A stretch of 64,000 bases of DNA, from the NCBI RefSeq assembly GCF_000763385.1, contig NZ_JQFA01000004.1:1178001-1242000 (forward strand). Reading direction: 5' to 3'. The stretch's first letter is position 1, and each line of letters begins with the position of its first letter. A program made the position numbers and the translations under genes. Positions 10,263 through 46,563 of this stretch are shown in pieces. The DNA is from Leptolyngbya sp. KIOST-1. Its GTDB lineage: Bacteria > Cyanobacteriota > Cyanobacteriia > Phormidesmidales > Phormidesmidaceae. A model generated the notes under the pieces. The model was not told the origin of the DNA, did no database searches, and saw nothing but the letters and a program-made list of their open reading frames with translations.

Positions 10263-10308
10263 AGCCTTTACCCTGGGCGGCAGGGATAGGGGCAAAAATC
10301 AGGGTTCC

Positions 10309-10352
10309 ATAACAAAAGGTTTTGGTGCCATGACACCAAAACCTTTTGTTAT
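10309..10352. terminator. Bidirectional terminator between pyk and psaM
   Basis: A perfect 19-bp stem with a 6-nt loop (left arm 10309-10327, right arm 10334-10352) separates convergent pyk and psaM copy 1. The A- and T-rich arms give U-rich 3' ends on either strand. The right arm overlaps the left boundary of the 312-bp duplication. The left arm is absent at the second copy. Confidence 0.75.
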
Positions 10353-10655
10353 CGTGAATTAAAGCGGGGAGCGCTAAAATAGCGGCCCCAACTTAACCTA
10401 CTTATAAAGCTCAGTAGACAGGCGAACTGCCAGAATACCAGGCAACAAAGCTAGGGCCAGGGCGATGAAAATCTGGGTTTCTGAAAGGGGCATAAAAATA
10501 CTCCTCGACGCTGGGTGAATAGTGCTTAGTCCCAAGACACTGGGTCTAGACAGATTGTTAACTAAGACGGGATCTTTCGCGAGGCTGGTGGGCGCAACTG
10601 TTACAGAGCTTAACGGCAACCCAGGCCGGCAGCGCTGGGTGGTCTGGGGTAAAGA
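10344..10655. repeat. 312-bp perfect direct repeat, copy 1 (carries psaM)
   Basis: Bases 10344-10655 reappear without a visible difference at 10667-10978 (offset 323 bp). The copies are separated by an 11-bp AC-rich spacer (ACACACACACT). The unit contains psaM and about 160 bp of its upstream region. Confidence 0.9.
10398..10493 (-). CDS. psaM: Photosystem I subunit XII (PsaM), copy 1
   Basis: A 31-residue single-helix membrane protein, MPLSETQIFIALALALLP followed by GILAVRLSTELYK. Length and the C-terminal RLSTELYK match PsaM, a small subunit at the periphery of the PSI core that supports trimer packing. A GAGGAG ribosome site lies 7 nt before the ATG. This copy is distal to the other on the minus strand and has the terminator hairpin immediately downstream. 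It is far below the size most gene finders accept. Confidence 0.92.
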   Translation of the reverse strand: MPLSETQIFIALALALLPGILAVRLSTELYK

Positions 10656-10666
10656 ACACACACACT

Positions 10667-10978
10667 TTTTGTTATCGTGAATTAAAGCGGGGAGCGCTAA
10701 AATAGCGGCCCCAACTTAACCTACTTATAAAGCTCAGTAGACAGGCGAACTGCCAGAATACCAGGCAACAAAGCTAGGGCCAGGGCGATGAAAATCTGGG
10801 TTTCTGAAAGGGGCATAAAAATACTCCTCGACGCTGGGTGAATAGTGCTTAGTCCCAAGACACTGGGTCTAGACAGATTGTTAACTAAGACGGGATCTTT
10901 CGCGAGGCTGGTGGGCGCAACTGTTACAGAGCTTAACGGCAACCCAGGCCGGCAGCGCTGGGTGGTCTGGGGTAAAGA
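10667..10978. repeat. 312-bp perfect direct repeat, copy 2 (carries psaM)
   Basis: The second copy of the unit at 10344-10655, apparently identical base for base. Its left end lacks the left arm of the terminator hairpin that follows copy 1, so transcription of this copy may run into copy 1. Confidence 0.9.
10721..10816 (-). CDS. psaM: Photosystem I subunit XII (PsaM), copy 2
   Basis: The encoded 31 residues are identical to copy 1, as is the upstream DNA, including the ribosome site and presumably the promoter. Only about 70 bp separate the end of the duplicated block from phoU, so any regulatory sequence further upstream belongs to this copy alone. Both copies look functional. Alternatively the duplication is an assembly artefact. 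Confidence 0.9.
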   Translation of the reverse strand: MPLSETQIFIALALALLPGILAVRLSTELYK

Positions 10979-11048
10979 TTGACTCTGACGAACTGCTAGG
11001 CTGAGGGGCCATGGCCACAGCTGTCTCAATTCTTTCGGTGGGCTAGCG

Positions 11049-11717
11049 ATGCTTGATATGGATACAACTCAACCGGTGCGCGGTGACTTTGACCGACAGC
11101 TACTGCGGGTGCAGCGCGACCTGCTGCGGATGGGAGCACTGGTTGAAAACTCCTGTGTACTGGCTCGGGAGGCGCTGTGCGATCGCAACCTGGATGCCGC
11201 CCAGCGGCTGCATCGCCACGACAAGCAGATCGACCAGTTCTATCGCCAGATCGAGCTGGACTGCATGCACCTGTTTACCCTCCAGGCGCAGCCCGAACCC
11301 GAGGATCTGCGGCGAATTGGAGCGTTTATGCAGATGGTGCGCGACCTCGAGCGCATTGGCGACTATGCCGAAGACCTGGGCGAAGTGGCGATCAAGCTCT
11401 TTCCCTACCCGGTGCAACCGCTGATGGGGCGGGTGCAAACCATGCTCGATCGCTGTCGCTCGATGGTGGCGATGTGCCTGCTGGCCCTGTCTGATCTGGA
11501 TGTCGAAAGCGGCCTAGAGATTAAGCAAAAAGACGACGCGATCGACAGCGACTACGACGAACTCTACGCCCTGCTGGCCCACCAGAGTAACCTGGTGGGG
11601 TCGGTGGAACCCACGGTGCTGCTGGTGCTGGCCATTCGCTACATGGAGCGCATTGCCGACCACGCCACCAATATTGGCAAGCGGGTTGCGTACATTGTGA
11701 CCGGCGAGCGCACTTAG
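11049..11717 (+). CDS. phoU: Phosphate signalling protein PhoU
   Basis: A 222-residue all-helical protein with two PhoU three-helix repeats. The metal-binding signatures MVRDLERIGDYAEDLGE and IRYMERIADHATNIGKRVAYIVTGE are clear. PhoU couples the PstSCAB phosphate transporter to the SphS/PhoR kinase and represses the phosphate regulon when phosphate is plentiful. No pst or sph genes are adjacent, as is common for cyanobacterial phoU. The ATG at 11049 gives the normal length, and an in-frame ATG at 11055 is possible. Confidence 0.93.
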   Translation: MLDMDTTQPVRGDFDRQLLRVQRDLLRMGALVENSCVLAREALCDRNLDAAQRLHRHDKQIDQFYRQIELDCMHLFTLQAQPEPEDLRRIGAFMQMVRDLERIGDYAEDLGEVAIKLFPYPVQPLMGRVQTMLDRCRSMVAMCLLALSDLDVESGLEIKQKDDAIDSDYDELYALLAHQSNLVGSVEPTVLLVLAIRYMERIADHATNIGKRVAYIVTGERT

Positions 11718-31421: not shown

Positions 31422-32075
31422 ATGAGTCAATCCATGTTCTCGACCTGGCCTGTTTCCCTTAGTGCCCCTAAGTCTGCTGTCAAGCCTGAACAGTTGACCA
31501 GCACAGAACTGGTAGCCCTTTGCCAGCAGCGGCTGCGGCCCGAGCGAACCATGTTCGCCGAACTTCTGCGCCGCCACCAAAGTCATGTAGATAAGCTGCT
31601 CTACCACCTGGCCCCCGATTGGACAGACCGGGCTGACCTGGCCCAGGAGGTCTGGATTCGGGTGTACCGCAACATGCGTCGATTAAACGACCCGGCTAAG
31701 TTCAAAGGCTGGCTGGGCCGCATCACCACCAACTTGTTTTACGACGAACTGCGTCGCCGGAAGCGCAACCGAGCTACCCTCTCCCTCGACGCCCCGCTGG
31801 CGTTGGAAGATGGCAGCATTGACTGGGATGTTCCCGCCAGTGCTCCCGGACCTGTGGACACCATGATGACGCGGGAATTTTACGACCAGCTGCACCGCGC
31901 CATTGCCGATCTGCCCGAGGTATTTCGCACGACCATTGTGCTGCGGGAGATCCAGGGCCTTTCCTACGAAGAGATTGCCGATATGACCGGCGTGTCTTTG
32001 GGTACTGTAAAGTCTCGGATTGCTCGAGCCCGGCAACGTCTCCAGGCTGATTTGCAGCCCTACCTGGGCTACTAA
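31422..32075 (+). CDS. sigG: ECF-type sigma factor SigG
   Basis: A 217-residue group 3/ECF sigma factor with only region 2 (DLAQEVWIRVYRNMRRLNDPAKFKGWLGRITTNLFYDELRRRKR) and region 4 (LPEVFRTTIVLREIQGLSYEEIADMTGVSLGTVKSRIARARQRL). Its closest recalled counterpart is cyanobacterial SigG, which is involved in envelope and light stress and is held by a membrane anti-sigma factor encoded next door. That arrangement is present here, the next gene being a ZAS-like membrane protein. Confidence 0.85.
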   Translation: MSQSMFSTWPVSLSAPKSAVKPEQLTSTELVALCQQRLRPERTMFAELLRRHQSHVDKLLYHLAPDWTDRADLAQEVWIRVYRNMRRLNDPAKFKGWLGRITTNLFYDELRRRKRNRATLSLDAPLALEDGSIDWDVPASAPGPVDTMMTREFYDQLHRAIADLPEVFRTTIVLREIQGLSYEEIADMTGVSLGTVKSRIARARQRLQADLQPYLGY

Positions 32076-32382
32076 CCTCAATTTATCAAAGGTCCGTCGG
32101 TAGGGTGCTCTGCCAATTCCTGTCTACCATTTGCGAACCAACAATATCCCGGCGGCGCAAGCGTAGAGAACTTTGTAACCTCTTAAACCTTTCCCTCCGG
32201 CTTCTATCTAAGGAATTATGTTTTATCGATTAGAAATGCCCCCCAGAGGTTACCGATTTTGAGGTGTTGGCATTATGATCAGTACCGGCGGCAAAAATCC
32301 ATGCCTGGGTTCCTATCCAACTGGATTTTATAGACTGCTTGGATCGTCGGTTTAGTAGCTTATTTCAGGTGTTGTTTTTGGT
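32076..32382. other. 307-bp spacer between sigG and its anti-sigma gene
   Basis: Unusually long for a sigma/anti-sigma pair. It is AT-richer than the surroundings and holds no supported gene. It may carry a separate promoter for the anti-sigma factor. Confidence 0.35.
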
Positions 32383-32952
32383 ATGACTACCTCTCCCTAC
32401 ACGCCTAATGCGGTTCAGGCCTCCTCCCCTCGGGGGGGTAGCCCAGATGAATCATCGAATTCACCTGCGCCTTGCTGTCATGACTTAGATGCCACTAAGC
32501 GCGATCGCTTCGAATTGCTCAGCGCTTACCTCGATGGCGAGGTTACCCCCGAAGAACGCCAGCAGGTACTCTGCTGGATTCAAAACGACGATGGGGTCCG
32601 CAGCCTTTACAACCGGTTGCTGGCGCTGCGCCAGGGAATGCGCAGTCAAAGCATTGCCCCTAGCTGCGACGCAGAAGCAACTTTAGTGGGCGTATTTCAC
32701 AGCTTCAACCGTCGCCTCAGGCTAGCCACTATGGCCAGTGCTGGGGTGGCGGCCATTGGCGTGATCAATCTCCTCTCGGGGTCGGGAATGGGCAATCCTG
32801 CTTGGCGCCTGACCAGTGTGGCCCAACCCGAGACCCTGCAAATTGCCCTTGACAAACCGGCCTTTCCAATCCCTGAGACCTCCTCGGGGATTGTTACCGA
32901 TGTTGTTAGTCCCCTTGAGGCCGGCGGTTTGCCAGTCGATCCTGAACTGTAG
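32383..32952 (+). CDS. Anti-sigma factor of SigG (membrane-anchored)
   Basis: A 189-residue protein. The cytoplasmic N-terminal half contains the anti-sigma signature RFELLSAYLDGEVTPEERQQVLCWIQND. Residues about 108-130 form one membrane helix (MASAGVAAIGVINLLSG). The remainder is predicted to be extracytoplasmic. The canonical zinc-binding HxxxCxxC motif is not evident. Position and architecture match the anti-SigG gene of other cyanobacteria. It would sequester SigG until released by an envelope or redox signal. Confidence 0.8.
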   Translation: MTTSPYTPNAVQASSPRGGSPDESSNSPAPCCHDLDATKRDRFELLSAYLDGEVTPEERQQVLCWIQNDDGVRSLYNRLLALRQGMRSQSIAPSCDAEATLVGVFHSFNRRLRLATMASAGVAAIGVINLLSGSGMGNPAWRLTSVAQPETLQIALDKPAFPIPETSSGIVTDVVSPLEAGGLPVDPEL

Positions 32953-34604: not shown

Positions 34605-34817
34605 CTAAGCCTTCTTAGCGGCCTTGGGAGCTTCAACTTCTTGAAGCTCAGACAGCGCGAAGTTGTTGGTGTTGATACCGGCGTAATTGACCTGATCAAA
34701 GCGCACGACGGCGGGGTACTTAATGCCGCTCTGGTCGATGGTGGCAACGGTGCCGACTTCCCGATACCAGTACGACTCTTTACGCAAAATGCGGACTTTA
34801 GAACCACGTTGAACCAT
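34605..34817 (-). CDS. psaE: Photosystem I reaction centre subunit IV (PsaE)
   Basis: A 70-residue SH3-fold extrinsic subunit on the stromal/cytoplasmic face of PSI, needed for ferredoxin docking and cyclic electron flow. The sequence [39 protein letters not shown] and [18 protein letters not shown] is diagnostic. An Ala/Lys-rich tail (APKAAKKA) ends the protein. The start is the ATG at 34817, with AGAGGG about 9 nt upstream. Confidence 0.95.
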
Positions 34818-35159
34818 GAACAATGCCCTCTTGAAAAATCAATATTAATGGCAGATTGCCCAGGCCAAGCCGCAGCCAGGGCTAATCGCAGAAAGCCCAT
34901 GACCAAGCTTGGATAGGGGGTTATTCCATGCCACCAGATTACTACGACAGCCCCAATCTCACGGCCCTGGAGGGTTTAAGTTTTATTGCAAACCCGCCAG
35001 GCGGATCCATTTACTTCCAGAGTATTGTCGGCAGGGCGATCGCGGCCGTACCCAGGGGCGCTCAGCGGCACCGCAGCCAGCAGAGCGATGGTCCCGGTCA
35101 GTCGATAAATGGCGATAAATATTTTCTGGCAGAAATTTTGTTCATATTTCGCAACACTT
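34818..35159. other. Divergent intergenic region between psaE and the PSII assembly-like cluster
   Basis: About 340 bp between divergent photosynthesis-related units. An 80-codon plus-strand ORF at 34928 has no ribosome site or recognisable sequence, and I do not accept it. The AT-rich stretch at 34840-34850 (ATATTAAT) could be the psaE -10 region. Confidence 0.4.
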
Positions 35160-35179
35160 GGGCACACTAAATCTGTCAC
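35160..35179 (+). promoter_or_regulatory. Shared 20-bp upstream motif, copy 1
   Basis: GGGCACACTAAATCTGTCAC ends 26 bp before the first phycobilisome-fold gene. It matches 17 of 20 positions of the motif at 35958-35977, which ends 30 bp before the first V4R gene. This may be a shared promoter -10 region or operator. Confidence 0.5.
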
Positions 35180-35205
35180 TGCTTTTCACGGGAGTTCTTT
35201 TCGCC

Positions 35206-35676
35206 ATGCTGACCAATATCGAGGCCCTAGTGCAGGCCACCGACGGCCGCTACGCCTCCGACCAGGAGCTGCTATTTTTTCAGACCTACCTGTCTACGGT
35301 CGGCATTCGGCTGCGGGCCTACCAAAAAATTCAGGCTGCCGAGCAGCAGATCATCGCCCAGGTGATGGCCCGACTCAAAGCCCAAAAGCCCAACGTGTTT
35401 CAAATTGGCGATCAGGATTTAACCGCCAAATGGCAGCGAGACACGGTGCGGGTGCTGCGCTATAGCGCCATGGCGCTGCTACTGGATGACCCCGATCGCT
35501 TCAAAGACAACCTGCTGAGCTGGTTCCAGACCATCATGCGAGCCTTCGGAGCCCAGGAGAGCTGCGAACTCACCTACGCCGCCATGCAGGCGGTTATGCC
35601 CCAGTTTCTCAACGCCGAAGAACTCAAGCTGTTTTTGCCCATTCTGGAGCTGAGCCGGATTACCCTGGGGCAGTAG
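35206..35676 (+). CDS. Bilin-less phycobilisome-fold protein 1 (PSII assembly-like cluster)
   Basis: A 156-residue protein with the globin-like phycobiliprotein fold: an N-terminal region LQ-TYLSTVGIRLRAYQKIQAAEQQI, then WQRDTVRVLRYSAMALLLDDP, which aligns with the C-x-R-D-x-x-x-x-LRY chromophore segment of phycobiliproteins. The bilin-binding Cys is Trp, so no bilin can be thioether-linked. Paralogous to the gene at 37098 and similar to Synechocystis slr0146 as I recall it. It has its own upstream motif and is followed by 331 bp. The ATG at 35206 has GGAG 11 nt upstream. Confidence 0.75.
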   Translation: MLTNIEALVQATDGRYASDQELLFFQTYLSTVGIRLRAYQKIQAAEQQIIAQVMARLKAQKPNVFQIGDQDLTAKWQRDTVRVLRYSAMALLLDDPDRFKDNLLSWFQTIMRAFGAQESCELTYAAMQAVMPQFLNAEELKLFLPILELSRITLGQ

Positions 35677-35957
35677 GCTATGGCTGTACAGTCGGCCTAA
35701 AAATGGCTTTTTAAGCCTGAAGTTAGCCTCCAGGGAACCCCTGGCGGAAAGGTCTAAATTGGTCATAGTTAAGTACCGCTTGGGGGATTCAGAAGAGTTT
35801 CCCGGGCGGTTTTTGTTGCCATATTTACTACGTTTTGTATCGTTCGAGCGCTGGGACAGGTGGCCCCAAACCTGCGGTTTCCTGTGGTTTGGGCCAGCGG
35901 TGTAGGGTAAGTCCTGACGACGATCCCAGGGTTGAGCTGTTAATTTTGTGCGGGGCT
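35677..35957. other. Intergenic region before the first V4R gene
   Basis: No gene is supported. It ends in the second copy of the 20-bp motif, suggesting a second promoter inside the cluster. Confidence 0.4.
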
Positions 35958-35977
35958 GGGCACATTACATCTATCAC
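35958..35977 (+). promoter_or_regulatory. Shared 20-bp upstream motif, copy 2
   Basis: GGGCACATTACATCTATCAC, differing from copy 1 (35160-35179) at three positions and lying at almost the same distance from the next start codon. Confidence 0.5.
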
Positions 35978-36007
35978 CGAAAACAGTCTTACAAGGCCTG
36001 TTACACC

Positions 36008-36691
36008 ATGGTTATGACCACAGAAACCGCCCACCGTCTACACCAGAAATTTCCCAAAAAGCATAACCACTATGCCCTGCGAGATTTCTTTCAATTCAAT
36101 GGTGAATACGGCACCATTACCGACTGGAACGACACCCGCAATGTGCTCACCAGCGAAGACTTTATCATTGGCCTGCTTGAAGGGCTGCAGGAGGAAGTCG
36201 GCGATGCCTCTTCAGCAATTATGTACACCGTCGGGCTGGAGTGGGGCAAAATCGACTCGCTGCAGTTTGAAACCTGGTTTGAGCGCGAGTTTTCCATGAG
36301 CCCCCGCCGCGCCAACCTGATGTTTTTGCTCGAAACCTGGTGGTGGCCCTACATCTCCCAAGGCTGGGGCCGTTGGGAAGTCGATATGAGCGATCGCAAG
36401 CAGGGGTTCATGTTTATCAACCTGTTTGACTCCGCCGTGGCCCGCACCCTGGGCGACGTGGGCAAACCCGTCTGCCACCTGTACGCCGGGCTGTTTGCCG
36501 GGTTCTTTACCGAAATGGTCCGCAAGCAGCTGAGCTGTATTGAAATTCAGTGCTACTCCATGGGTGAGACCTACTGCAAGTTTCTGCTGGGGGGGCGCGA
36601 ACGCATCGATGCCGCCGCCTTTTGGATGAACGAAGGGGCCAACGCCCGCGACATTGAGAAGCGGCTGCGGGCTGGGGAAGGTGGCCAATGA
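36008..36691 (+). CDS. V4R-domain protein 1 (slr0144-like)
   Basis: A 227-residue soluble protein. The C-terminal half is a V4R domain with the pattern YAGLFAGFFTEMVRKQLSCIEIQCYSMGETYCKFLLGG, including the paired Cys. The N-terminal part is Trp/Phe-rich (LLETWWWPYISQGWGRWEVDMSD). V4R domains bind small hydrophobic ligands and, in BchJ relatives, tetrapyrroles. It corresponds by domain and neighbours to Synechocystis slr0144, first gene of the operon implicated in PSII assembly. Its TGA overlaps the next ATG by four bases, indicating translational coupling. Either ATG at 36008 or 36014 may be used. Confidence 0.8.
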   Translation: MVMTTETAHRLHQKFPKKHNHYALRDFFQFNGEYGTITDWNDTRNVLTSEDFIIGLLEGLQEEVGDASSAIMYTVGLEWGKIDSLQFETWFEREFSMSPRRANLMFLLETWWWPYISQGWGRWEVDMSDRKQGFMFINLFDSAVARTLGDVGKPVCHLYAGLFAGFFTEMVRKQLSCIEIQCYSMGETYCKFLLGGRERIDAAAFWMNEGANARDIEKRLRAGEGGQ

Positions 36692-36999
36692 GCCCATCTC
36701 CCCTCGATGCCATGACCAACGCCCAGGCGTCTCAACCCTGGCTAAAAGAAACCGTACAGACCTTCTTCCAGGCCGTTGCCTGGGATGGACGAGCGGTCTT
36801 TGCAGCCCCAGGATTGGGGAGCCCCAGCTCGTCAGAGTCGGCCATGACCATGACCGTCACTGATTTCTTCGCCAGCATTGCCTGGGACGGTCAGCCCAAC
36901 ATTGGGGTTCCCATTGCCCCCCTGGAGGCCGTTCCCGCCGCGTCTGCAGACGCTGACCTCGACCTGACGCTGGACGGGTTCTCCGACCTGTTTGGGTAG
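36688..36999 (+). CDS. Small protein with duplicated FF...WDG motif (slr0145 position)
   Basis: A 103-residue acidic protein. Two internal repeats are visible: TVQTFFQAVAWDGRAVF at about 22-38 and TVTDFFASIAWDGQPNI at about 56-72. The C-terminus is DLDLTLDGFSDLFG. It starts on the ATGA overlap with V4R protein 1 and precedes the second phycobilisome-fold gene. By position it corresponds to slr0145, whose function is unknown. The short aromatic repeats look like linear binding motifs for a partner. Confidence 0.7.
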   Translation: MSPSPLDAMTNAQASQPWLKETVQTFFQAVAWDGRAVFAAPGLGSPSSSESAMTMTVTDFFASIAWDGQPNIGVPIAPLEAVPAASADADLDLTLDGFSDLFG

Positions 37000-37097
37000 T
37001 TCCCGCCTCGGCCGGGACTGGTCCCTGGACGTTTCCCTGGGCGTTATAGTCCCTGCTCAACCCTACCGCTTGCCTCGCAAACCCAGAGGATTTTGCC

Positions 37098-37586
37098 ATG
37101 ACCTTTAAGCTCGACACCCTGTTTAACTCGCCCGAAAAGCAATACCTCGATGCCAACGACCTCAGCACTCTGAGTCAGTACGTGAGCTCGATTCCAGATC
37201 GGATGGCGGTCTATCGCACCCTGCGCGACCAGGAGATTGCCATCATGCAGCCCATTGCCGACGCCCTCCAGCAGCAGGCGGGACACCCCGAGCCGCTGGT
37301 CGAGCGCAGCGTGCGCAACGGGCTGATGGTGCTGCGCTACGCCGCTATGGCCATGCTGCTCGACGACGAAGGATTTGTGGAGGAGCGGCTCCAGGGTTGG
37401 CTGCCAGAGATGGTGAAGGCCTACGAAACCCAGGCCGTGGACCAGCAGCTGTTTCAGCTCCTGTTTCAGCAGTTGGGCAAGATTTTTTCACCGGCTCAGC
37501 TCAACCTGCTCAAGCCCAACCTGGAAAAGGCCCAGAGCCTGATGCTCAACACCCGCGAAACCGTCACACTGGCCGGACTGCTCTAG
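37098..37586 (+). CDS. Bilin-less phycobilisome-fold protein 2 (slr0146-like)
   Basis: A 162-residue phycobiliprotein-fold protein. The chromophore segment reads SVRNGLMVLRYAAMAMLLDDE, with Ser for the bilin-binding Cys and Asn for the following Asp, so it should be colourless. It is paralogous to the gene at 35206 (shared LRYxAMAxLLDD). In Synechocystis a similar gene sits between slr0145 and the second V4R gene, the order seen here. It may act as a scaffold or chaperone for tetrapyrrole proteins. Confidence 0.78.
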   Translation: MTFKLDTLFNSPEKQYLDANDLSTLSQYVSSIPDRMAVYRTLRDQEIAIMQPIADALQQQAGHPEPLVERSVRNGLMVLRYAAMAMLLDDEGFVEERLQGWLPEMVKAYETQAVDQQLFQLLFQQLGKIFSPAQLNLLKPNLEKAQSLMLNTRETVTLAGLL

Positions 37587-37670
37587 GGGCTGTGGTTTAG
37601 CGCTTGGGGGTTGCCCCCGTTCCGCTCCGGCGGTTCTGACCACCATTACTCTCCTGTAAGGACGTTACCT

Positions 37671-38333
37671 ATGGTTTCTGTTGCCGATTTACTCACCGAT
37701 GGCCGGCTGCCCGGCAACTATTTTGCCCAGGATCTCTACGTGCGGGGCTCGACCGAACTGGGCTTGCTGGAAAACCGACGCGGCGATCGCCTGCTGGCTA
37801 TTCCTGACCCGCTGCTGCAGGCCATCTACTCTGGCCTGGAAAAGGAGACGGGCCAGGCCTCCCGCCTGGTGCTCTACAACTGTGGCCGCTGGTGGGGCAA
37901 AAACTTCTATGCCCGCTTCTGTGAGGAGCTGGCGGACTACTACAAACAACCCATGGCCAGCCTGTCGATGGCCGAATTTCTGCAGTCCCTACAGCAGTGT
38001 TGGAAAACCCACGGCTGGGGCCAAATTCACCTGGATGTCACCTACCGCGATCGCGGCTTTCTAGGCGTTGAAATCTGGCATTCCCCCTTTACCGCTGCAG
38101 CCCCCCAGAGCCAAAAACCCTCGGGCGATCTGGAGCGCGGCATTCTAGAAATTTTCTTTACCCAGCTGACTGGGCGCGAACTGCGCTGTGTCCAAACCAG
38201 CTGCACCGCCAAGGGCGATGACTGCAATCGCTTTATTTTGGGCCTCGACAAGCGCCTGAGCTCGGTGGAGGGGATGGTTGCCAACGGTCAGGCTCACCAG
38301 GCGATTATGCAAACCCTCATGCAGCAGGGGTAG
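37671..38333 (+). CDS. V4R-domain protein 2 (slr0147-like)
   Basis: A 220-residue protein with the V4R domain at the C-terminus (GILEIFFTQLTGRELRCVQTSCTAKGDDCNRFILGL) and a Trp/Tyr-rich N-terminal half (VLYNCGRWWGKNFYARFCEEL). It is paralogous to the gene at 36008. TAAGGA lies 8 nt before the ATG at 37671. It is followed after only 7 bp by the kinase gene. The position matches slr0147 in the PSII assembly operon. A tetrapyrrole or other hydrophobic ligand is plausible but not shown. Confidence 0.8.
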   Translation: MVSVADLLTDGRLPGNYFAQDLYVRGSTELGLLENRRGDRLLAIPDPLLQAIYSGLEKETGQASRLVLYNCGRWWGKNFYARFCEELADYYKQPMASLSMAEFLQSLQQCWKTHGWGQIHLDVTYRDRGFLGVEIWHSPFTAAAPQSQKPSGDLERGILEIFFTQLTGRELRCVQTSCTAKGDDCNRFILGLDKRLSSVEGMVANGQAHQAIMQTLMQQG

Positions 38334-38340
38334 GCATACC

Positions 38341-40134
38341 GTGGCCCCCACCCGCCAAATCCGGCGATCGCAATACCGAATCCTGGGGCTGGTTGGCCAC
38401 GGTCAGTTTGGTCGCGTCTACTGCGCCATCCACCGCACCACCGGCGACCTGGTAGCCATCAAAGACCTGCACAAAGACCGCTTTCCGACCCACAAATTTT
38501 TGCGGGAGCTGCGGTTTTTGATCAGCCTGGAGCATCCCAGCATTGTCACTTGCCACGCGCTGGAGCATTCCGCCAGTGGACGGCAGCTAATCCTCGACTA
38601 CTGCGAGGGGGGGACCCTGCGATCGCTGTTAGAAAGCGATACCGTACTCACCCTGCAGGAGGTACTGGGGTTTACCCTCGATATTCTGGCCGCCCTGGAG
38701 TGCGCCCATCGCCAGGGCATCGTCCACTGCGACATCAAGCCAGAAAATATTCTCATGGAGCTGACTCCCGGCGGTTGGGTCGCCCGGGTATCTGACCTGG
38801 GCATTGCCCGTCTCAGTCAGGAGGCCACCCAGACCGACATGGGCCAAACGGGCTCGCCCGCCTACATGGCCCCGGAGCGGTTTTACAACCAGCACCCCCC
38901 CGCCGCCGACCTCTACGCGGTGGGCATTATTTTGTACGAGCTGCTGCTGGGGCAGCGCCCGTTTTCGGGCACTCCCATGGAACTCATGGTGGCCCACCTG
39001 AACCGCCCGCCGGTAGTCCCGGCCCAGGTGCCCAAGCCGCTGGTCCCGGTGCTGCGCAAGACGCTGGAAAAGCTGCTTCCCAGGCGCTACACCACCGCCC
39101 GCGACCTCCGCGCCGACCTGATGGCAGTGTACGACACCTATCAAAGCCAGGGCCTGCTGCACCAGCCCGCCTGCCCCAAAACTATCCCCAACCTCGACCT
39201 GGCCCCCGACCTACCCTCTGTGCCGCTGCCCCACCCCACCGCGGTGATGGGGCTGGTACCCCTGGCTCACCAGGGACACCTGGTGGTGACCTGTAGCCAG
39301 CAGCAGGTCTGGTTTTACCACTGGGCTCGAACAGGCATGTCGGCCCCCGAAGTCAGCCAGGGATTTAACCTGGCCGCGCCGGTAAAAGCGTTCTTGCCCA
39401 CGCCCCAGGGCGGGGTTTTGGTGACGACGGAGTCACTGCACCTGCTGTCGATGACCCACGGACTGGGCTGTATTGCCCACAGCATTCAGTCGGATGGGGT
39501 GGCGGTGGCCCCCAGCGGTCGATGGTTTGCCACCGTCGGGCAAACCCCGGCAGGGATGAACGTTTCGGTGCGCCAGCTCACCATGCCGCAGCAGGGGGTC
39601 AAAATCTCAGCGCCCAGGACGGTCACCTTGCCCACCCAACCGGAGGACCAGCTGGTGACGCTAATCGCCCTGGACAACGGCCATATTGCCCTGGTTCTGC
39701 GTCGGGGCAGTCGAACCCTGTTCTATGGCATTACCCGTCGGGGCACCTATCTGGGCTCCATGGCTGCCTCGGTGCCGCTGTATAACCTGGTGGTCACCAG
39801 CCATCCCTACCGCTACCTGGCCCTGGAGGACAACTGTCCGAACGCGGTGCTGGTCGTTGACCTGATGCCGTTTAGAATCTTGCGCTACCGGGTTGATATT
39901 GAACCCCACTGGCTGTTTGAAACGGCGGTCGGCTACGGCCTGCTCAGCCAAATGGGCGAATTTTCGCTGCTCAACGACGAGGGCCGGGTGATCAACCGCA
40001 TGGCCGGGCTGCCGCGACCAGCGACCGTGGTGCAGCGAGGTCCGACCGAATATCTGTGGAGTACCAATGAGGGCGATCGCAGCCGCATTTACACCGTGGG
40101 CCTCGGTGACCTCGCCCCAGATATTCTGCTCTAG
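38341..40134 (+). CDS. spkG: SpkG-like Ser/Thr protein kinase with C-terminal sensor-like domain
   Basis: A 597-residue protein starting at a GTG 7 bp after the V4R gene, with GGGGTAGG upstream. The N-terminal Hanks-type kinase has the Gly loop GHGQFGRV (19-26), Lys41, HCD at 129-131 in place of HRD, DLG at 152-154 in place of DFG, and APE at 177-179. The catalytic Asp and Lys remain, so activity is likely. Residues about 300-597 form a beta-rich region resembling propeller blades. In Synechocystis the slr0144-slr0152 operon ends with spkG. Here spkG follows the second V4R gene directly. Confidence 0.75.
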   Translation: MAPTRQIRRSQYRILGLVGHGQFGRVYCAIHRTTGDLVAIKDLHKDRFPTHKFLRELRFLISLEHPSIVTCHALEHSASGRQLILDYCEGGTLRSLLESDTVLTLQEVLGFTLDILAALECAHRQGIVHCDIKPENILMELTPGGWVARVSDLGIARLSQEATQTDMGQTGSPAYMAPERFYNQHPPAADLYAVGIILYELLLGQRPFSGTPMELMVAHLNRPPVVPAQVPKPLVPVLRKTLEKLLPRRYTTARDLRADLMAVYDTYQSQGLLHQPACPKTIPNLDLAPDLPSVPLPHPTAVMGLVPLAHQGHLVVTCSQQQVWFYHWARTGMSAPEVSQGFNLAAPVKAFLPTPQGGVLVTTESLHLLSMTHGLGCIAHSIQSDGVAVAPSGRWFATVGQTPAGMNVSVRQLTMPQQGVKISAPRTVTLPTQPEDQLVTLIALDNGHIALVLRRGSRTLFYGITRRGTYLGSMAASVPLYNLVVTSHPYRYLALEDNCPNAVLVVDLMPFRILRYRVDIEPHWLFETAVGYGLLSQMGEFSLLNDEGRVINRMAGLPRPATVVQRGPTEYLWSTNEGDRSRIYTVGLGDLAPDILL

Positions 40135-40195: not shown

Positions 40196-40585
40196 ATGCT
40201 GGAGTTTATGACCCTGCCCAATAACGTGCTGCCTCCGGTAGCTCCCTACTCCCACGCGGTCAGGGCAGGGGATTTTTTGTTTGTGACCGGGCAGCTGGCG
40301 GAGGACCCGACTACTGGCGAGGTGATCAAGGGCCCGATTGAAGACCAGACCCGCCAGGTGATGAACAACCTGGCCCTGGTGCTCAACCACGCGGGTACGG
40401 GCTTCAACCGGGTAGTAATGGCGCGCGTTTTTGTCACCGACTTTCGCCACTACGAAACGGTCAACGCCATCTACCAGTCCTACTTTGGCAATGCGCCCCA
40501 GCCCAGCCGCACCACCGTGGGGGTCACCGCCCTGGCGGGCTATGGCGATGTAGAGATCGACTTGATCGTCTACTGCGGCGAGTAG
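40196..40585 (+). CDS. RidA family enamine/imine deaminase
   Basis: A 129-residue trimeric YjgF/YER057c/UK114 protein that hydrolyses reactive 2-aminoacrylate-type enamines released by PLP enzymes. The conserved Arg is in PQPSRTTVGVTAL and the Glu in VEIDLIVYCGE. The signatures PYSHAVRAGDFLFVTGQLAEDP and FVTDFRHYETVNAIYQSYF are typical. The ATG at 40196 has a purine-rich GAGAAG about 10 nt upstream. Confidence 0.9.
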   Translation: MLEFMTLPNNVLPPVAPYSHAVRAGDFLFVTGQLAEDPTTGEVIKGPIEDQTRQVMNNLALVLNHAGTGFNRVVMARVFVTDFRHYETVNAIYQSYFGNAPQPSRTTVGVTALAGYGDVEIDLIVYCGE

Positions 40586-41631: not shown

Positions 41632-44600
41632 CTAACATTCTTTCGTTCGCGGCTGTACCAGGGTGGCGATCGTGCTCACTAGCAGGTCGGGTTCGATAGG
41701 TTTGGCCAGGTGCAGCTGAAAGCCAGCGGCCAGGGCCTGCTGCTGATTGATGTCGCCGGCGTAGGCGGTGAGGGCGATGGCTGGAATATTGCCCCCCTGG
41801 TCGTGCAGCCGATGGCGGATCTGCTGGATCAGCTCGTAGCCATCCATGTCGGGCATGCCGATGTCGCACAGCAGCAGGTCGGGCACCGACTGGTTCAGCA
41901 GGCTGAGGGCCTGGAGGGCAGAGGTCGCGGTGGCCACTTCCGCTCCCGCCTGGGTGAGAATAAAGGTGGCCAGATCCCGCATGTCGGCCTCGTCATCGAC
42001 CACCAGAACCCGCAGTCCAGCCAGGTCGGTGGCGTTGTCTAGGGGCTCGGCGGCGGCGGGCTGAGCCCGTTTGTCCAGGTTGAGGGGCAGCTGCACGGTG
42101 AAGGTCGCGCCCAGGTTGGGGCCGGGGCTGTTGGCGGCCACCAGCCCGCCGTGCAGTTCGGCGATCTGCCGCACGATCGCCAGGCCCAGGCCCAGGCCGC
42201 CAAACTGACGGGTGGTGGTGCCGTCTTCCTGCCGGAAGTAGTCGAATACGTGGGGCAAAAAGTCGGGATGGATGCCCTTGCCGGTGTCGCTGACCTGGAT
42301 TTGGGCGGAGGTCTCCACCTGCTCCAGGGTGATGGTCACCTGTCCCCCCGCCGGGGTGAACTTAACCGCATTGGAGAGCAGGTTCCAAATCACCTGCTGG
42401 AGTCGGTTGGTGTCGCCCAGGACCTGACCCGCGATCGCATTTAGATGAGTTTCGAGCTGAATGCGCTTGGCCTCCGCCGCCAGGCGCACGGTGTCGATCG
42501 CCGCCTCAACGGTGCTGGCCAGATTCACCGGGCCCACCGTCAGGGTCAGCTTGCCCTGCAAAATGCGGGAGACGTCGAGCAGGTCTTCGATTAGTTGGGT
42601 CTGGAGTTTGGCGTTGCGCTCGATGGTTTCCAGGGCCTGGTCGGTTTTGGCGGCATCCAGGGGGCGGCTGCGCAGGAGTCGGGCCCAGCCCAGAATGGGA
42701 TTCAGCGGCGATCGCAATTCGTGGGACAGCACCGCCAGGAACTCGTCTTTGATCCGGTTGGCGGCCTCTGCCTGGGCGCGATCGCGCTGGGCGGCCCCGT
42801 AGAGCTGGGCATTTTCAATCGCCAGGGAAGCCCGGTGGGCCAACTCTTCGGCCAGCTGCAAATCGGTGTCCCTGTAGCGGCGGCCCGACTCGGCCGAGAT
42901 GAACGAAATCACGCCAATCACCCGGTCCTGGCTGCGCAGGGGCACCGTCATGGCGGAACTAAAGCCCACCTGCCGCAAAATCTCCAGGTGCTCAGGGTCT
43001 TTAGCGGCATGGACCAGCAGGTCATCGGGAATGTCAGGAATCAGCTCGGGTTGCCCGGTACGCAGGGTGAGGGCGGCACCGCGCTCCTCATTGGGGTCGA
43101 GGGGATACTGATCGCGAATTTGGTAGGCCCACTCCAGTTTGGCCGGGTCGATGTGGGCTACGGCAATCTGGTCGATGGTGCCATCCTCTTCCACCATGTG
43201 GACGGTACACCAGTCGGCCAGTTCTGGTACGGTGAGCCGGGCCACCTGCTCCAGGGTGGTCTGGTAGTCAAGGGACGATGCCAGCACAGCGCTCGCCTCC
43301 GACAGATACTGCTGGGCGCGCTCCAGCTTAACCCGCTCGGTGACATCAACTATGTAGGCCAGCAGCCGTTCCACCCGCTGGTGGTCGTCCACCGTGGGCA
43401 GGTAGTAGACGTTGTAGTAGCCGGGGCGGCGATCGCCATGGCCAGGGGCATTGATCGCCAGGTTGGGGGAGATAAAGGGTTTTCCCGTAGCGTAGATCTG
43501 ACGAATCACCTCAACGATGTCGGGATCGGTTTGACCAAACAGCTCGGCTACAGACCTACCCAGATGTTGGTCGCGCGGTAGCCCATTGATCTCCGCCAGG
43601 GCTTCGTTGATGGCGACAAAACGCTGCTCCCCATCCAGCAGCGCCAGGCCAATGGGGGAGGTGTCAACGATGGTGGCCAACTGCCGTTGGGCAGCTTCGG
43701 CCTGGGCGCGGGCCAGGCGTTCGCGCTCGAGCAGCTGTTCGCGCTCCTGCTCGGCGAGCTTGCGATCGGTAATGTCGATCAAAGCGCCGATAGATTGCTT
43801 GGGGTGGCCCTGCACATCGTAGGAAAACTGCCCCCTGTCCTCAACCCAGTGCAGGGAGCCGTCGGGCCACAGCAGTCGATACTCGTGGTGGTAGTCGGTG
43901 CGCTCTTGCATCGCCTGCCGCATTTTTGCCTTGACGGTGGACAGGTCATCGGGATGAACACGGCTACCCCACATCTGGCTGCTGGGTTCACATTCGTCGG
44001 GCTGATAGCCCAGGATGGTGTAGTGCCCCGCCGACCAGCGGACATTATCGGTCTGAACATCCCATTCCCAGGTGCCCATGCGGCCAATATTGAGAGCGAG
44101 CTGGAGGCGGGCTTCGCTCTCGCGCAGTTCGGCCTCGGCGCGCGATCGCTCCACAGCCAGCCAGGTCTTTTCGGCAATGCGCTCCATCAGGGCGACATCG
44201 TCTGCCGTCCAGGCCCGGGGGGTGGCCTGGTGGAGCACCAACATAGCCACAAACCGCCCCCGCTTGACCAGGGGGACGCAGAGCAGCGAGCGGATCGCCA
44301 GGGCGGCAAAGGCCCTGGCCCCAGCGTTAAGGATGCGAGGGTCGCCCTCTAGATCGTCGACCACGATGGTTTTGCCCTGCTTTAGCTCGGCCAGTAGATC
44401 GGCTCCAAAGGACTTTAATTGGTGAGTACCGACAACGCTGCTGACGCCATCGCAGTAGTCGCGATCGATGATCGCGTGCTCCTGGGCCGCATCGATTTCG
44501 CCGTAGGCGCAGCGCGAGGCGTCGAAGTGCTGACCGGTGGCGCTAACCACCTGCCAGATAATCTCTTCCGAGTCTTGCAGGGTGCGGGCGGCGTCATTCA

Positions 44601-46527
44601 GCTCAATCAAAAACTGCTGCTGCCGTTCTTTGCGCTGGAGTTCGGCCAGCAGGGCTTCGCGGTTGGCTTCGATCTGCTTGCGATCGCTAATGTCGATAGA
44701 AACCCCAACCATGCGCACGGGCTGTCCAGCCCCGTTGAGATAAAGCCGTCCCTGGCTTTTGAGCCAGCGTACCTCACCGCTGGCAGTGACCACCCGATAC
44801 TCCTGGGCAAAGAACTGATCGCCCACCACGGCTTCGGCGGTTGCCTGCTGGAGCAGGGGGCGATCGTCGGGATGGATGAGAGCCCGAAATGCCCCGGTGG
44901 TGCCCACCTCCATGCCCCAAATCTCTCGGGCATTGGGGGAACATACCACCCGCTGGGTTTCGATATCCACATCCCAGGCCACCATCTGGGCCGAGGAGAG
45001 GGCGAGCTGGAGGCGTTCTTCCGCCTCTCGCAGGTTGGCCTCGATCTGCTTCAGGCGGGTGACATCCTGGAACATGCCAATGCCGGTCGCTGGATGGCCA
45101 TGCATGGCGGGTAGAATTTCTCCCCAACAAAGGGTGGGCCGCACGCCGCCGGGGGTATGCCAGTTTATTTCATAGTTCTGCAGGCGCTCCCCTCGGGCAA
45201 TCAGTACGGCGGGCATCTGGTCGGTGGGGATGCGATCGCCCTGGCCATCGGTGCAGTAGTAGGCGTCGGGGTACTCCTCCAGGGATTTGTGCTTGGGTAA
45301 ATCGCCCCCGGCCAACTGATTGGCAATGTGGTTAGAAAACGTGATCTTGGCGGTCTCAGGTTCAATGAAGACGGCGGGCGTTGGCATTAAATCCAGGACA
45401 GTCTGTAACCATTTCTGCTGGTTTTCCAGATCTTCCGCCTGCTGCCTCAGCAGCCGTTCGGTGTGCTGGCGCTCGGTGATGTCTTGCACCACCACCGCTG
45501 CCGCCAAAATTTGCCCCTGCCGGTCCAAAACTGGGGCCGAGCTGACCGAGATAACGATCCGCCTGCCGTCTTCGTAGCGCAGCTCCATTTCCTCATCGGC
45601 CACGACTTCTCCCGCCCGCAGCGATCGCGCCAGGGGGTACTCGTGGGGCGCATAGAGTTCCCCACTGGGGCGAAACGCCTGCAGGGGGACGATGGGTACA
45701 TAGTCCTCCAGTTCGTAGGACTGCTCGAAACTGTAGCCCAAGATGTGTTGTGCCTGCTCGTTGGCCAGCACCAGTTTGTTCGTCGCCGCTTCGGCAATCA
45801 GTACGCCCGCCGGCATCTGGCGCAGCACCGCTTCAAACTGGGCCCGTTCCTTCTCCAGCTCGCCGAGCAGCCGCTCGCGCTCGACCTCGGCCTGTTTGCG
45901 GTCGGTCACATCGCGAAAATATACCGCCACCCCCTCCGCTGAGGGGTAGGCTCTGGCCTCCAGCCAGCGGTAGAGGGGCTCGCCAAATTCTTCCCAGGCC
46001 ACCGGTATTTGCTCGGCGATCGCCCGGTGCATCGCCTTGTAGGCCACCCCATCCACCAGGTAGGGGAACACCTCCTTCCACACCTGTTTGCCGATCAGCT
46101 CCTCTGGGGTTTTGTGCAAAATCTGGGTGGCGGCCTGGTTGACGTAGGTGTAGCGCCAGTCGCGGTCAAAGGCCACGAAGGCATCGGTAATGCTTTCTAA
46201 AATCGCGACGATTTTAGGCTCTGTCGCCCGGTCAGCGGGGTCTGGGGTGTGGGCCAGCCGCGTCTCCAGGGCGTGGTTCCGCTGCTGTAGCAAGCGAATC
46301 TGCTCTTGCAGCTGCGCGATCTGCCCCTGCTCTCCAGGGCCGGGGGGAGCACCCTCCGCCTCTAACTGACGGGCGAACTGTTCGATCACCTCCGATCGGG
46401 ATGTTCCCTGGGATTGGGCCAACCGGGCAAGCGATCGCCAAGCCGTAGGAGTGATAGATAGACTGACTCGTTGCTTGATCTCTCGCTCCCAGCTGTTCAC
46501 AAACGTTCCGCTCGCGTCGCGTGTCAT
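41632..46527 (-). CDS. Hybrid sensor histidine kinase: RHH, six PAS, two GAF, HisKA, HATPase, receiver
   Basis: About 1631 residues and soluble. An N-terminal ribbon-helix-helix (CopG-like) domain spans about 14-53 (QRVSLSITPTAWRSLARLAQ, then TSRSEVIEQFAR), followed by a coiled coil. PAS domains lie at about 105-210, 230-355, 372-495 and 505-620, GAF at 640-795, PAS at 805-925 and 945-1065, GAF at 1070-1240. HisKA carries the phospho-acceptor His in FLAVLSHELRSPLNP. The ATPase has NLLSNAVKFTP and GGLGLGLAIV, and the receiver Asp is in LLLCDIGMPDMDG. The GAF domains lack an obvious bilin Cys. The ATG at 46527 is chosen, though a Met at 46563 is also in frame. Confidence 0.85.
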   Translation of the reverse strand: MTRDASGTFVNSWEREIKQRVSLSITPTAWRSLARLAQSQGTSRSEVIEQFARQLEAEGAPPGPGEQGQIAQLQEQIRLLQQRNHALETRLAHTPDPADRATEPKIVAILESITDAFVAFDRDWRYTYVNQAATQILHKTPEELIGKQVWKEVFPYLVDGVAYKAMHRAIAEQIPVAWEEFGEPLYRWLEARAYPSAEGVAVYFRDVTDRKQAEVERERLLGELEKERAQFEAVLRQMPAGVLIAEAATNKLVLANEQAQHILGYSFEQSYELEDYVPIVPLQAFRPSGELYAPHEYPLARSLRAGEVVADEEMELRYEDGRRIVISVSSAPVLDRQGQILAAAVVVQDITERQHTERLLRQQAEDLENQQKWLQTVLDLMPTPAVFIEPETAKITFSNHIANQLAGGDLPKHKSLEEYPDAYYCTDGQGDRIPTDQMPAVLIARGERLQNYEINWHTPGGVRPTLCWGEILPAMHGHPATGIGMFQDVTRLKQIEANLREAEERLQLALSSAQMVAWDVDIETQRVVCSPNAREIWGMEVGTTGAFRALIHPDDRPLLQQATAEAVVGDQFFAQEYRVVTASGEVRWLKSQGRLYLNGAGQPVRMVGVSIDISDRKQIEANREALLAELQRKERQQQFLIELNDAARTLQDSEEIIWQVVSATGQHFDASRCAYGEIDAAQEHAIIDRDYCDGVSSVVGTHQLKSFGADLLAELKQGKTIVVDDLEGDPRILNAGARAFAALAIRSLLCVPLVKRGRFVAMLVLHQATPRAWTADDVALMERIAEKTWLAVERSRAEAELRESEARLQLALNIGRMGTWEWDVQTDNVRWSAGHYTILGYQPDECEPSSQMWGSRVHPDDLSTVKAKMRQAMQERTDYHHEYRLLWPDGSLHWVEDRGQFSYDVQGHPKQSIGALIDITDRKLAEQEREQLLERERLARAQAEAAQRQLATIVDTSPIGLALLDGEQRFVAINEALAEINGLPRDQHLGRSVAELFGQTDPDIVEVIRQIYATGKPFISPNLAINAPGHGDRRPGYYNVYYLPTVDDHQRVERLLAYIVDVTERVKLERAQQYLSEASAVLASSLDYQTTLEQVARLTVPELADWCTVHMVEEDGTIDQIAVAHIDPAKLEWAYQIRDQYPLDPNEERGAALTLRTGQPELIPDIPDDLLVHAAKDPEHLEILRQVGFSSAMTVPLRSQDRVIGVISFISAESGRRYRDTDLQLAEELAHRASLAIENAQLYGAAQRDRAQAEAANRIKDEFLAVLSHELRSPLNPILGWARLLRSRPLDAAKTDQALETIERNAKLQTQLIEDLLDVSRILQGKLTLTVGPVNLASTVEAAIDTVRLAAEAKRIQLETHLNAIAGQVLGDTNRLQQVIWNLLSNAVKFTPAGGQVTITLEQVETSAQIQVSDTGKGIHPDFLPHVFDYFRQEDGTTTRQFGGLGLGLAIVRQIAELHGGLVAANSPGPNLGATFTVQLPLNLDKRAQPAAAEPLDNATDLAGLRVLVVDDEADMRDLATFILTQAGAEVATATSALQALSLLNQSVPDLLLCDIGMPDMDGYELIQQIRHRLHDQGGNIPAIALTAYAGDINQQQALAAGFQLHLAKPIEPDLLVSTIATLVQPRTKEC

Positions 46528-46537
46528 GGAGTATGGC

Positions 46538-46555
46538 ACCGTTTGCACAAACGGT
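46538..46555. promoter_or_regulatory. 18-bp palindrome at the 5' end of the RHH-kinase gene
   Basis: ACCGTTTGCACAAACGGT is a perfect inverted repeat with a 2-bp centre (CA). It lies 10 bp upstream of the ATG at 46527, or inside the coding region if translation begins at 46563. Its size suits a ribbon-helix-helix operator. Confidence 0.45.
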
Positions 46556-46563
46556 AAAACCAT

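Follow-up and report, generated by a model that had tools for sequence, protein, structure and literature searches.

We have identified a six-gene cluster of Leptolyngbya sp. KIOST-1 that, judged by alignment of its products, represents the slr0144-slr0152 (Pap) module in its Nodosilinea form, which is the standard one there. The cluster lies in the window, by which we mean the whole 64,000-nucleotide (nt) stretch of DNA that was analyzed (contig NZ_JQFA01000004.1, positions 1,178,001 to 1,242,000, forward strand), and runs PBS1, V4RA, WDG, PBS2, V4RB and a Ser/Thr kinase. The Synechocystis-type order of this module is probably derived, and the window is probably closer to the older order. An overall account in which the Nodosilinea Pap form retains a near-old order and encodes a tetrapyrrole-handling complex tuned by the kinase is, in our judgment, somewhat more probable than not.

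Gene content and family assignments

The original prediction had placed six genes in this order. All of the open reading frames (ORFs) are present on the + strand, and Pfam agrees:

35206..35676, + strand: PBS1, slr0149-type phycobilisome-fold globin, a cyanobacterial BBAG (PF00502, 2.8e-18, for the ORF from 35158)
36008..36691, + strand: V4RA, slr0144 type (PF02830, 2.6e-20)
36688..36999, + strand: WDG, the FF-W protein, slr0145 type (no Pfam match)
37098..37586, + strand: PBS2, slr0146-type phycobilisome-fold protein (PF00502, 5.3e-8)
37671..38333, + strand: V4RB, slr0147 type (PF02830, 1.3e-13)
38341..40134, + strand: Ser/Thr kinase, slr0152 (SpkG) type (PF00069, 5.7e-46)

Alignments and inspection by eye point to start codons at 35206 (PBS1, ATG), 36008 (V4RA, ATG), 37671 (V4RB, ATG) and 38341 (kinase, GTG). 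A longer V4RA that would use the upstream frame was ruled out by stops in relatives; by eye, the frame ahead of the ATG carries a stop in 12/13 aligned loci, all but the window, and in same-genus genomes the matches that extend upstream contain stops as well. Searched for V4R, the source genome yields two genes, both of them in the cluster. The best named match to V4RA is from Nodosilinea sp. LEGE 06152 (97% identical), and by sequence the source genome is Nodosilinea-like.

Locus L058, from another family, was used as the yardstick for family calls and as a stand-in for the Synechocystis sequence. Its order is V4RA-WDG-PBS2-V4RB-Fd5-PBS1-Fd-TPR-kinase, where Fd5 is the slr0148-type ferredoxin, and we take this to be the Synechocystis slr0144-slr0152 order by gene number. 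That the products belong to the slr0144-slr0147 and slr0152 families, as predicted, is borne out by identities to the L058 counterparts of 58.7% for V4RA, 48.9% for V4RB, 36% over 75 aligned residues for WDG (E 5e-9), 32.7% for PBS2 (23.6% to the slr0149 type of L058) and 36.4% over 629 alignment columns for the kinase. The kinase aligns in two stretches (window ORF residues 22-283 and 410-607); it has the catalytic motifs HCDIKPEN and DLG and an extra C-terminal region, and it is assigned as SpkG-type by its kinase domain together with the C-terminal region that it shares with the L058 kinase. The front gene had been taken for an additional phycobilisome-fold gene. PBS1 is closer to the slr0149 type of L058 (37.3%) than to the slr0146 type (27.2%), and it is therefore assigned as a displaced slr0149 orthologue. 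The window has the slr0145-type small protein 3' of V4RA and the slr0149-type globin before V4RA, with an slr0148-type ferredoxin elsewhere in the genome. An slr0151-type TPR gene is missing from the cluster, and the absence of ferredoxin and TPR genes inside it is as predicted.

Distribution of the layout

Loci were annotated around V4R genes (38 + 80 + 20), together with five stretches around Fd5. Of 326 matches to the window V4RA, the best 80 supplied the 80 named loci, and all tallies reported here consequently lean to relatives of the window. Repeats of a V4RA sequence were left out of the distinct-loci tally, counts of the next gene required 1.5 kb after V4RB, and residue counts (WDG, PBS1, PBS2, V4RA, V4RB and Fd5) are per row with some duplicates included.

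A V4RA match, which in a few genomes is just a V4RB-type paralogue, occurs in 36/194 genomes of the phylum and 246/388 of the class. V4RB lies downstream in 118/125 distinct V4RA loci; in 118/118 of these the two V4R genes are on the same strand and flank a phycobilisome-fold gene, which directly follows V4RA apart from the WDG gene detected in 101/118. The V4RA-PBS2-V4RB order is far above chance. A comparison of gene order across cyanobacteria had been proposed as a check, and in this relative-enriched sample the kinase is the commonest gene after V4RB (78 of 113 distinct loci), ahead of Fd5 (17) and neither (18). Since the kinase holds this place in 78/113 loci, the window layout is ordinary for Leptolyngbya-like cyanobacteria; the window's own type, with the kinase after V4RB and PBS1 alone in front, accounts for 24 loci, the window included. 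Whole families are without V4R genes, and family f7 contributes no genome to the 36 V4R-matching genomes of the phylum sample. Likewise, fed5 is absent from the Anabaena and Nostoc strains listed in PMC4284462.

Which gene order is older

The original prediction called the cluster a compact, rearranged version of the Synechocystis operon, a direction of change that is probably reversed. Two clusters from another class bear on this. L063 reads Fd5-V4RA-FF/W protein-PBS-V4RB-heme oxygenase-kinase (heme oxygenase, Pfam 1.8e-13) and L069 reads PBS (cut)-V4RB-kinase, with V4RB and the kinase 1 nt apart; a V4R match was found in 2/18 genomes of this class. When the V4RA tree is rooted on L063, 16/17 rows with Fd5 after V4RB form one clade (support 98). 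Four rows make up its sister group (support 97), among them L039 and L041, whose PBS1 and Fd5 are inverted and placed between V4RB and the kinase. It is because of the L063 and L069 clusters and this nested Fd5-after clade that the long, Synechocystis-type order is read as derived. In the simplest interpretation, one lineage, that of the Synechocystis-type order, relocated Fd5-PBS1 to a position behind V4RB.

Several observations weigh against this polarity. The outgroup consists of two genomes, and L069 is cut off by the end of its contig; V4RA of L063 sits on a long branch, and the tree tool cautions that such branches may group; L061 has Fd5 after V4RB yet falls outside the Fd5-after clade; and homology of the window kinase to those of L063 and L069 was detected in the kinase domain only. 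Conversely, the window order could be the derived one, with kinase-after-V4RB having arisen when a Synechocystis-like operon lost Fd5-PBS1-Fd-TPR. The fewness of the outgroup genomes, whose clusters were possibly gained by transfer, would favor such a loss, as would the position of L061, itself a long branch, near the base of the tree. However, L063 and L069 are both without the insertion, L039 and L041 have the look of inverted intermediates, and the Fd5-after rows other than L061 make up a single nested clade, and we consider the loss scenario unlikely.

Partners encoded elsewhere

The suggested search of the source genome for an slr0148 homologue located Fd5 on another contig than the cluster (G000:C2:2728766-2729245, E 9.1e-81). 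Its neighbors are a LysR gene and a gene for a 279-amino-acid (aa) protein without a Pfam match. By eye, the same setting of LysR gene, unknown gene and Fd5 recurs in L109 directly before a contiguous Fd5-PBS1-V4RA, and the break in the window's line therefore appears to have fallen between Fd5 and PBS1. Thr18 is kept in 51/54 Fd5 rows and Thr72 in 50/54, and the Fd5 of the source genome has both; these residues are reportedly Fd5 phosphosites, a result said to come from Angeleri in 2018. A plain ferredoxin of slr0150-like type (58% identity) is encoded at C4:1431399. No full-length match to the slr0151 type was found in the source genome among the 11 of 68 first-look candidates that were scored; the best match to the slr0151 model (1.8e-19) covers model positions 178-269 of 314, the TPR repeats only. 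The same model reaches 1.8e-36 or better in 20/194 genomes, and in 19/20 the match lies no more than a few kb from V4R genes. As a separate observation on Fd5 loci, L157 carries at 10049-11212 (-) a ferrochelatase gene (Pfam 2.5e-121) with, by eye, a CAB-like C-terminal tail, ~1.8 kb from the relocated Fd5.

The phycobilisome-fold globins

An AlphaFold2 model of PBS1 (predicted local distance difference test score, pLDDT, 87.5) matches allophycocyanins at a TM score of about 0.8, and PBS1 is thus modeled with the allophycocyanin (globin) fold. This fold, together with its slr0149 lineage, places it among the cyanobacterial BBAGs. The Cys of the CXRD motif for covalent bilin attachment is not present in the window PBS1, where the position is Trp (residue 92 of the 35158 ORF). 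Across the PBS1 rows the position is W in 51/78 and C in 27/78, and the Asp three residues further on, that of CxRD, is kept in 77/78, the window included. At the corresponding position of PBS2 (residue 71) the window has Ser, and the rows have S in 71/104, A in 16/104 and C in 12/104. The prediction of a colorless phycobiliprotein-like pair accords with the lack of the attachment Cys in both proteins.

In 77 PBS1 rows (the identical row L156 left out), genes in front of V4RA have 45 W and 3 C and genes after V4RB have 16 C and 1 W, the remainder lying elsewhere. Nine further rows have W in six and C in three, and two of the C rows (L184, L189) are in the front position. Gene order as the cause of the Cys/Trp state was considered and rejected: the tree gives one independent pair from starred branches and two from all branches, and because there are just one or two such pairs, the link is read as clade-level and not causal. 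The globin of L063 has, by eye, Val at this position, and Cys was therefore not universal in the older clusters. The natural Cys/Trp variation in PBS1 separates covalent bilin attachment from whatever function remains.

The V4R proteins

V4RA was assigned to the V4R family by its Pfam match together with a Cys-Glu-Cys-Cys set, C176, E199, C202 and C210 in the numbering of the 35948 ORF, which is kept in 116/116 rows. The set aligns with residues of the MopR and PoxR V4R domains (5kbe, 5fru), to which the V4RA profile matches at E about 0.005, and these residues are presumably the zinc ligands there. In V4RB the set is incomplete (G172, Q195 and N206 in the window; Q195 in 100/103 rows and N206 in 101/103), and by alignment V4RB has partly lost what V4RA keeps.

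The similarity to MopR and PoxR could mean that the cluster is a V4R-based sensor, in which V4RA, with a V4R fold like that of phenol sensors, would bind a small hydrophobic molecule, the kinase would relay the signal, and effects on assembly would be indirect. The MopR/PoxR alignment, the invariance of the four residues and the kinase's place after V4RB in most loci all fit such a sensor. However, Pfam shows no output domain fused to V4RA, the kinase does not adjoin V4RB in 35/113 loci, and Slr0144-Slr0149 are described as thylakoid proteins acting mainly in photosynthetic repair (PMC9880817). We regard a sensor as quite improbable.

The FF-W protein and C-terminal tails

From 97 rows, WDG is characterized by two VxxFF-x4-W repeats with a spacing of 34 residues, the second of them followed by a Gly, and by a Leu and a C-terminal LF (conserved positions V23, F26, F27, W32, V57, F60, F61, W66, G68, L101 and F102). 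Because WDG rows were collected by their similarity to two WDG proteins, a shared motif is favored. The source genome has two DNA-level occurrences of FFxx[IVM]xW[D/E]G, both in WDG. V4RA and WDG overlap by 4 nt in the window and in 94 of 106 detected cases (partly de-duplicated, the first in-frame start codon being used), which suggests that their translation is coupled. L063 has a 249-aa FF-W protein after V4RA, with an overlap of 4 nt if the start is TTG or 1 nt if it is ATG and, by eye, four FF-x4-W copies; the FF-W protein thus looks old. L063 also encodes, at 10359-10751 (+), a second small protein with the C-terminus FNWD, 3' of the kinase.

The C-terminal LF, followed by up to two residues, is found in 94/112 WDG (counted per distinct C-terminus), 11/16 TPR, 34/100 kinase and 10/119 PBS2 proteins, and in none of the V4RA, V4RB, Fd5, PBS1 or Fd proteins. 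It occurs in 7/1028 other ORFs of >= 200 aa, and shuffling of the last 40 residues gives an expectation of 1-2.3%. A hydrophobic-hydrophobic-Phe C-terminus ends 70/80 kinases adjoining V4RB, 0/6 kinases with a TPR gene in the locus, 1/4 other kinases and 2/1038 background ORFs, with kinases of < 300 bits or < 500 aa left out. The rows behind both tail counts are related and are not independent events, and the window kinase itself ends in DILL, without Phe. By these comparisons the FF-W, kinase and TPR proteins often share similar hydrophobic-Phe tails.

We offer, quite tentatively, a further reading: the FF-W protein would be a multivalent scaffold of long standing in a V4R/bilin-globin complex, already present beside a heme oxygenase in a relative from a non-photosynthetic class. 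Its hydrophobic-Phe tail would serve for docking and recur on the kinase or, in loci whose kinase is without such a tail, on the slr0151-type TPR protein. On this view Slr0151 would have come in as an extra adaptor and assumed the docking of the kinase in the Synechocystis-type lineage, and photosystem assembly would have recruited what was ancestrally a module for bilin handling. Alternatively, the C-terminal tail of the kinase may supply the strand that closes a propeller-like domain.

Putative transcription units and neighboring genes

Three features were found between PBS1 and V4RA:

35775..35810, + strand: terminator-like hairpin, 16 pairs then TTTT
35826..35842, + strand: conserved block TACTACGTTTTGTATCG, from an alignment of 13 loci, overlapping the sole sigma-70-like hit of the region
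35963..35997, + strand: conserved non-coding block (5' leader), directly upstream of the V4RA ATG, from the 13-locus alignment

The interval 35676-35825 has a folding z of -4.34, and a comparable central hairpin was seen by eye in 10/13 Nodosilinea-type loci, being unclear in L079, L081 and L083. With up to 3 mismatches allowed, the TACTACGTTTTGTATCG block recurs in 14 Nodosilinea-type loci, where the second conserved block follows 133-138 nt later; it was not found in L085, L088, L091 and L093. The region has one promoter-like hit against a shuffle mean of 1.9, which is not above the shuffles. The TACTACGTTTTGTATCG block is a likely candidate for the promoter of V4RA-kinase. The hairpin and the conserved promoter-like block between the two genes suggest two transcription units, probably PBS1 by itself and V4RA-kinase. 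A regulon site was considered and rejected for TACTACGTTTTGTATCG; the source genome has one other site within 2 mismatches, upstream of a gene read as mreB.

Around the cluster, psaE, for photosystem I subunit IV (Pfam 3.3e-36), is located at 34605-34823 (-), divergent and directly upstream of PBS1, and a RidA-like gene (PF01042, 1.6e-33) lies at 40196-40585 (+), ~60 nt 3' of the kinase. Further out, 31422-32952 (+) holds a gene for a sigma-70-family (ECF-like) factor and, after it, one whose product carries a putative zinc-finger anti-sigma motif, and 41632-46563 (-) holds a 1643-aa ORF that by eye resembles a multi-PAS/GAF hybrid histidine kinase.

Proposed function

It is hypothesized that the older arrangement had Fd5 and PBS1 in front and the kinase after V4RB, and that in the window's line Fd5 and PBS1 were later split, leaving a stable core block of V4RA-WDG-PBS2-V4RB-kinase, a probably separately transcribed PBS1 and a 2Fe-2S partner, Fd5, encoded elsewhere. 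In the Synechocystis-type order, Fd5-PBS1 would have been relocated between V4RB and the kinase and a TPR gene would have joined. The cluster proteins may form one thylakoid-associated complex, in the window without Slr0151, in which V4RA and the globins would hold linear or cyclic tetrapyrroles non-covalently during assembly or repair of pigment-proteins, WDG would tie the subunits together through its repeated FF-x4-W motifs, Fd5 would supply or sense electrons, and the SpkG-type kinase would tune Fd5, encoded at another locus, by phosphorylation. We infer tetrapyrrole handling under SpkG control from published Synechocystis work, where Fd5 phosphorylation needs SpkG (PMC11863333) and is modulated by Slr0151 (PMC9958174). 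Pull-down experiments validated interactions among the thylakoid proteins Slr0144-Slr0149 (PMC9880817). BBAGs bind bilins, and BBAG-2 does so without the CXRD motif (PMC10151467). There are points that weigh against the proposal. Fd5 is dispensable for Synechocystis growth (PMC4284462), photosystem II (PSII) functions may be mediated by slr0150-slr0152 (PMC10151467), and SpkG activity is described as without direct verification (PMC11863333). PMC13326532 treats the roles of V4R proteins as unsettled, and a structure model of V4RA from 17 sequences was set aside for its low score (pLDDT 46), so that no pocket was seen.

The cluster may instead be primarily a bilin-related module that breaks down heme or handles bilins, descended from pre-PcyA clusters with a heme oxygenase and linked to PSII only secondarily. 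Such an origin is consistent with the heme oxygenase in the L063 cluster, with the descent of the cyanobacterial cluster from pre-PcyA clusters (PMC10151467) and with the nearly invariant CxRD Asp of PBS1. However, bilin reductase and heme oxygenase are absent from cyanobacterial clusters (PMC10151467), the window lineage has Trp in place of the bilin Cys, and the operon is up-regulated on loss of lumenal PSII proteins (Wegener 2008, as cited in PMC4853703). We therefore think the bilin-related module somewhat unlikely, and retain tetrapyrrole handling during photosystem assembly or repair as the working account.

Comparison with known systems

The available open-licence literature yielded no description of the kinase-after-V4RB order, the PBS1 Trp exchange or the FF-W motif. 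Cyanobacterial examples of the cluster are described as quite variable (PMC10151467). The pre-PcyA (pre-1/pre-3) BBAG clusters of heterotrophic bacteria (PMC10151467) likewise have a V4R pair, a bilin globin and an Fe-S protein, and the L063 cluster with its heme oxygenase has an FF-W protein after V4RA, as in the window; the window differs in that its six genes include neither heme oxygenase nor bilin reductase and its PBS1 has Trp for the bilin Cys. PMC4284462 gives the family make-up of the Synechocystis-type cluster and describes the variants e/e'/e''/e*, with and without fed4 and the kinase; in 0/4 of these does the kinase directly follow the second V4R gene, unlike in the window. In the Acaryochloris slr0144-0148/slr0151-0152 neighborhood (PMC6002478), an slr0149 homologue annotated apcA adjoins the cluster, as in the window; according to that paper an slr0151 homologue is also in the vicinity, unlike in the window's cluster.

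The Synechocystis slr0144-slr0152 (Pap) operon, compared through L058, has the same families of V4RA, small protein, PBS2, V4RB, kinase and slr0149 globin. It carries Fd5, Fd4 and TPR genes between V4RB and the kinase, where the window has none; in the window the slr0149 type is in front, Fd5 is on another contig, and the scored candidates gave no full-length slr0151 match. Published work on the Pap operon, including its role in PSII assembly or repair, comes from Synechocystis, in which PSII effects may stem from slr0151 and its neighbors. If the Synechocystis order is derived, Nodosilinea-like lineages would present the core module without Slr0151, and the role of V4RA-WDG-PBS2-V4RB-kinase would be testable there on its own.

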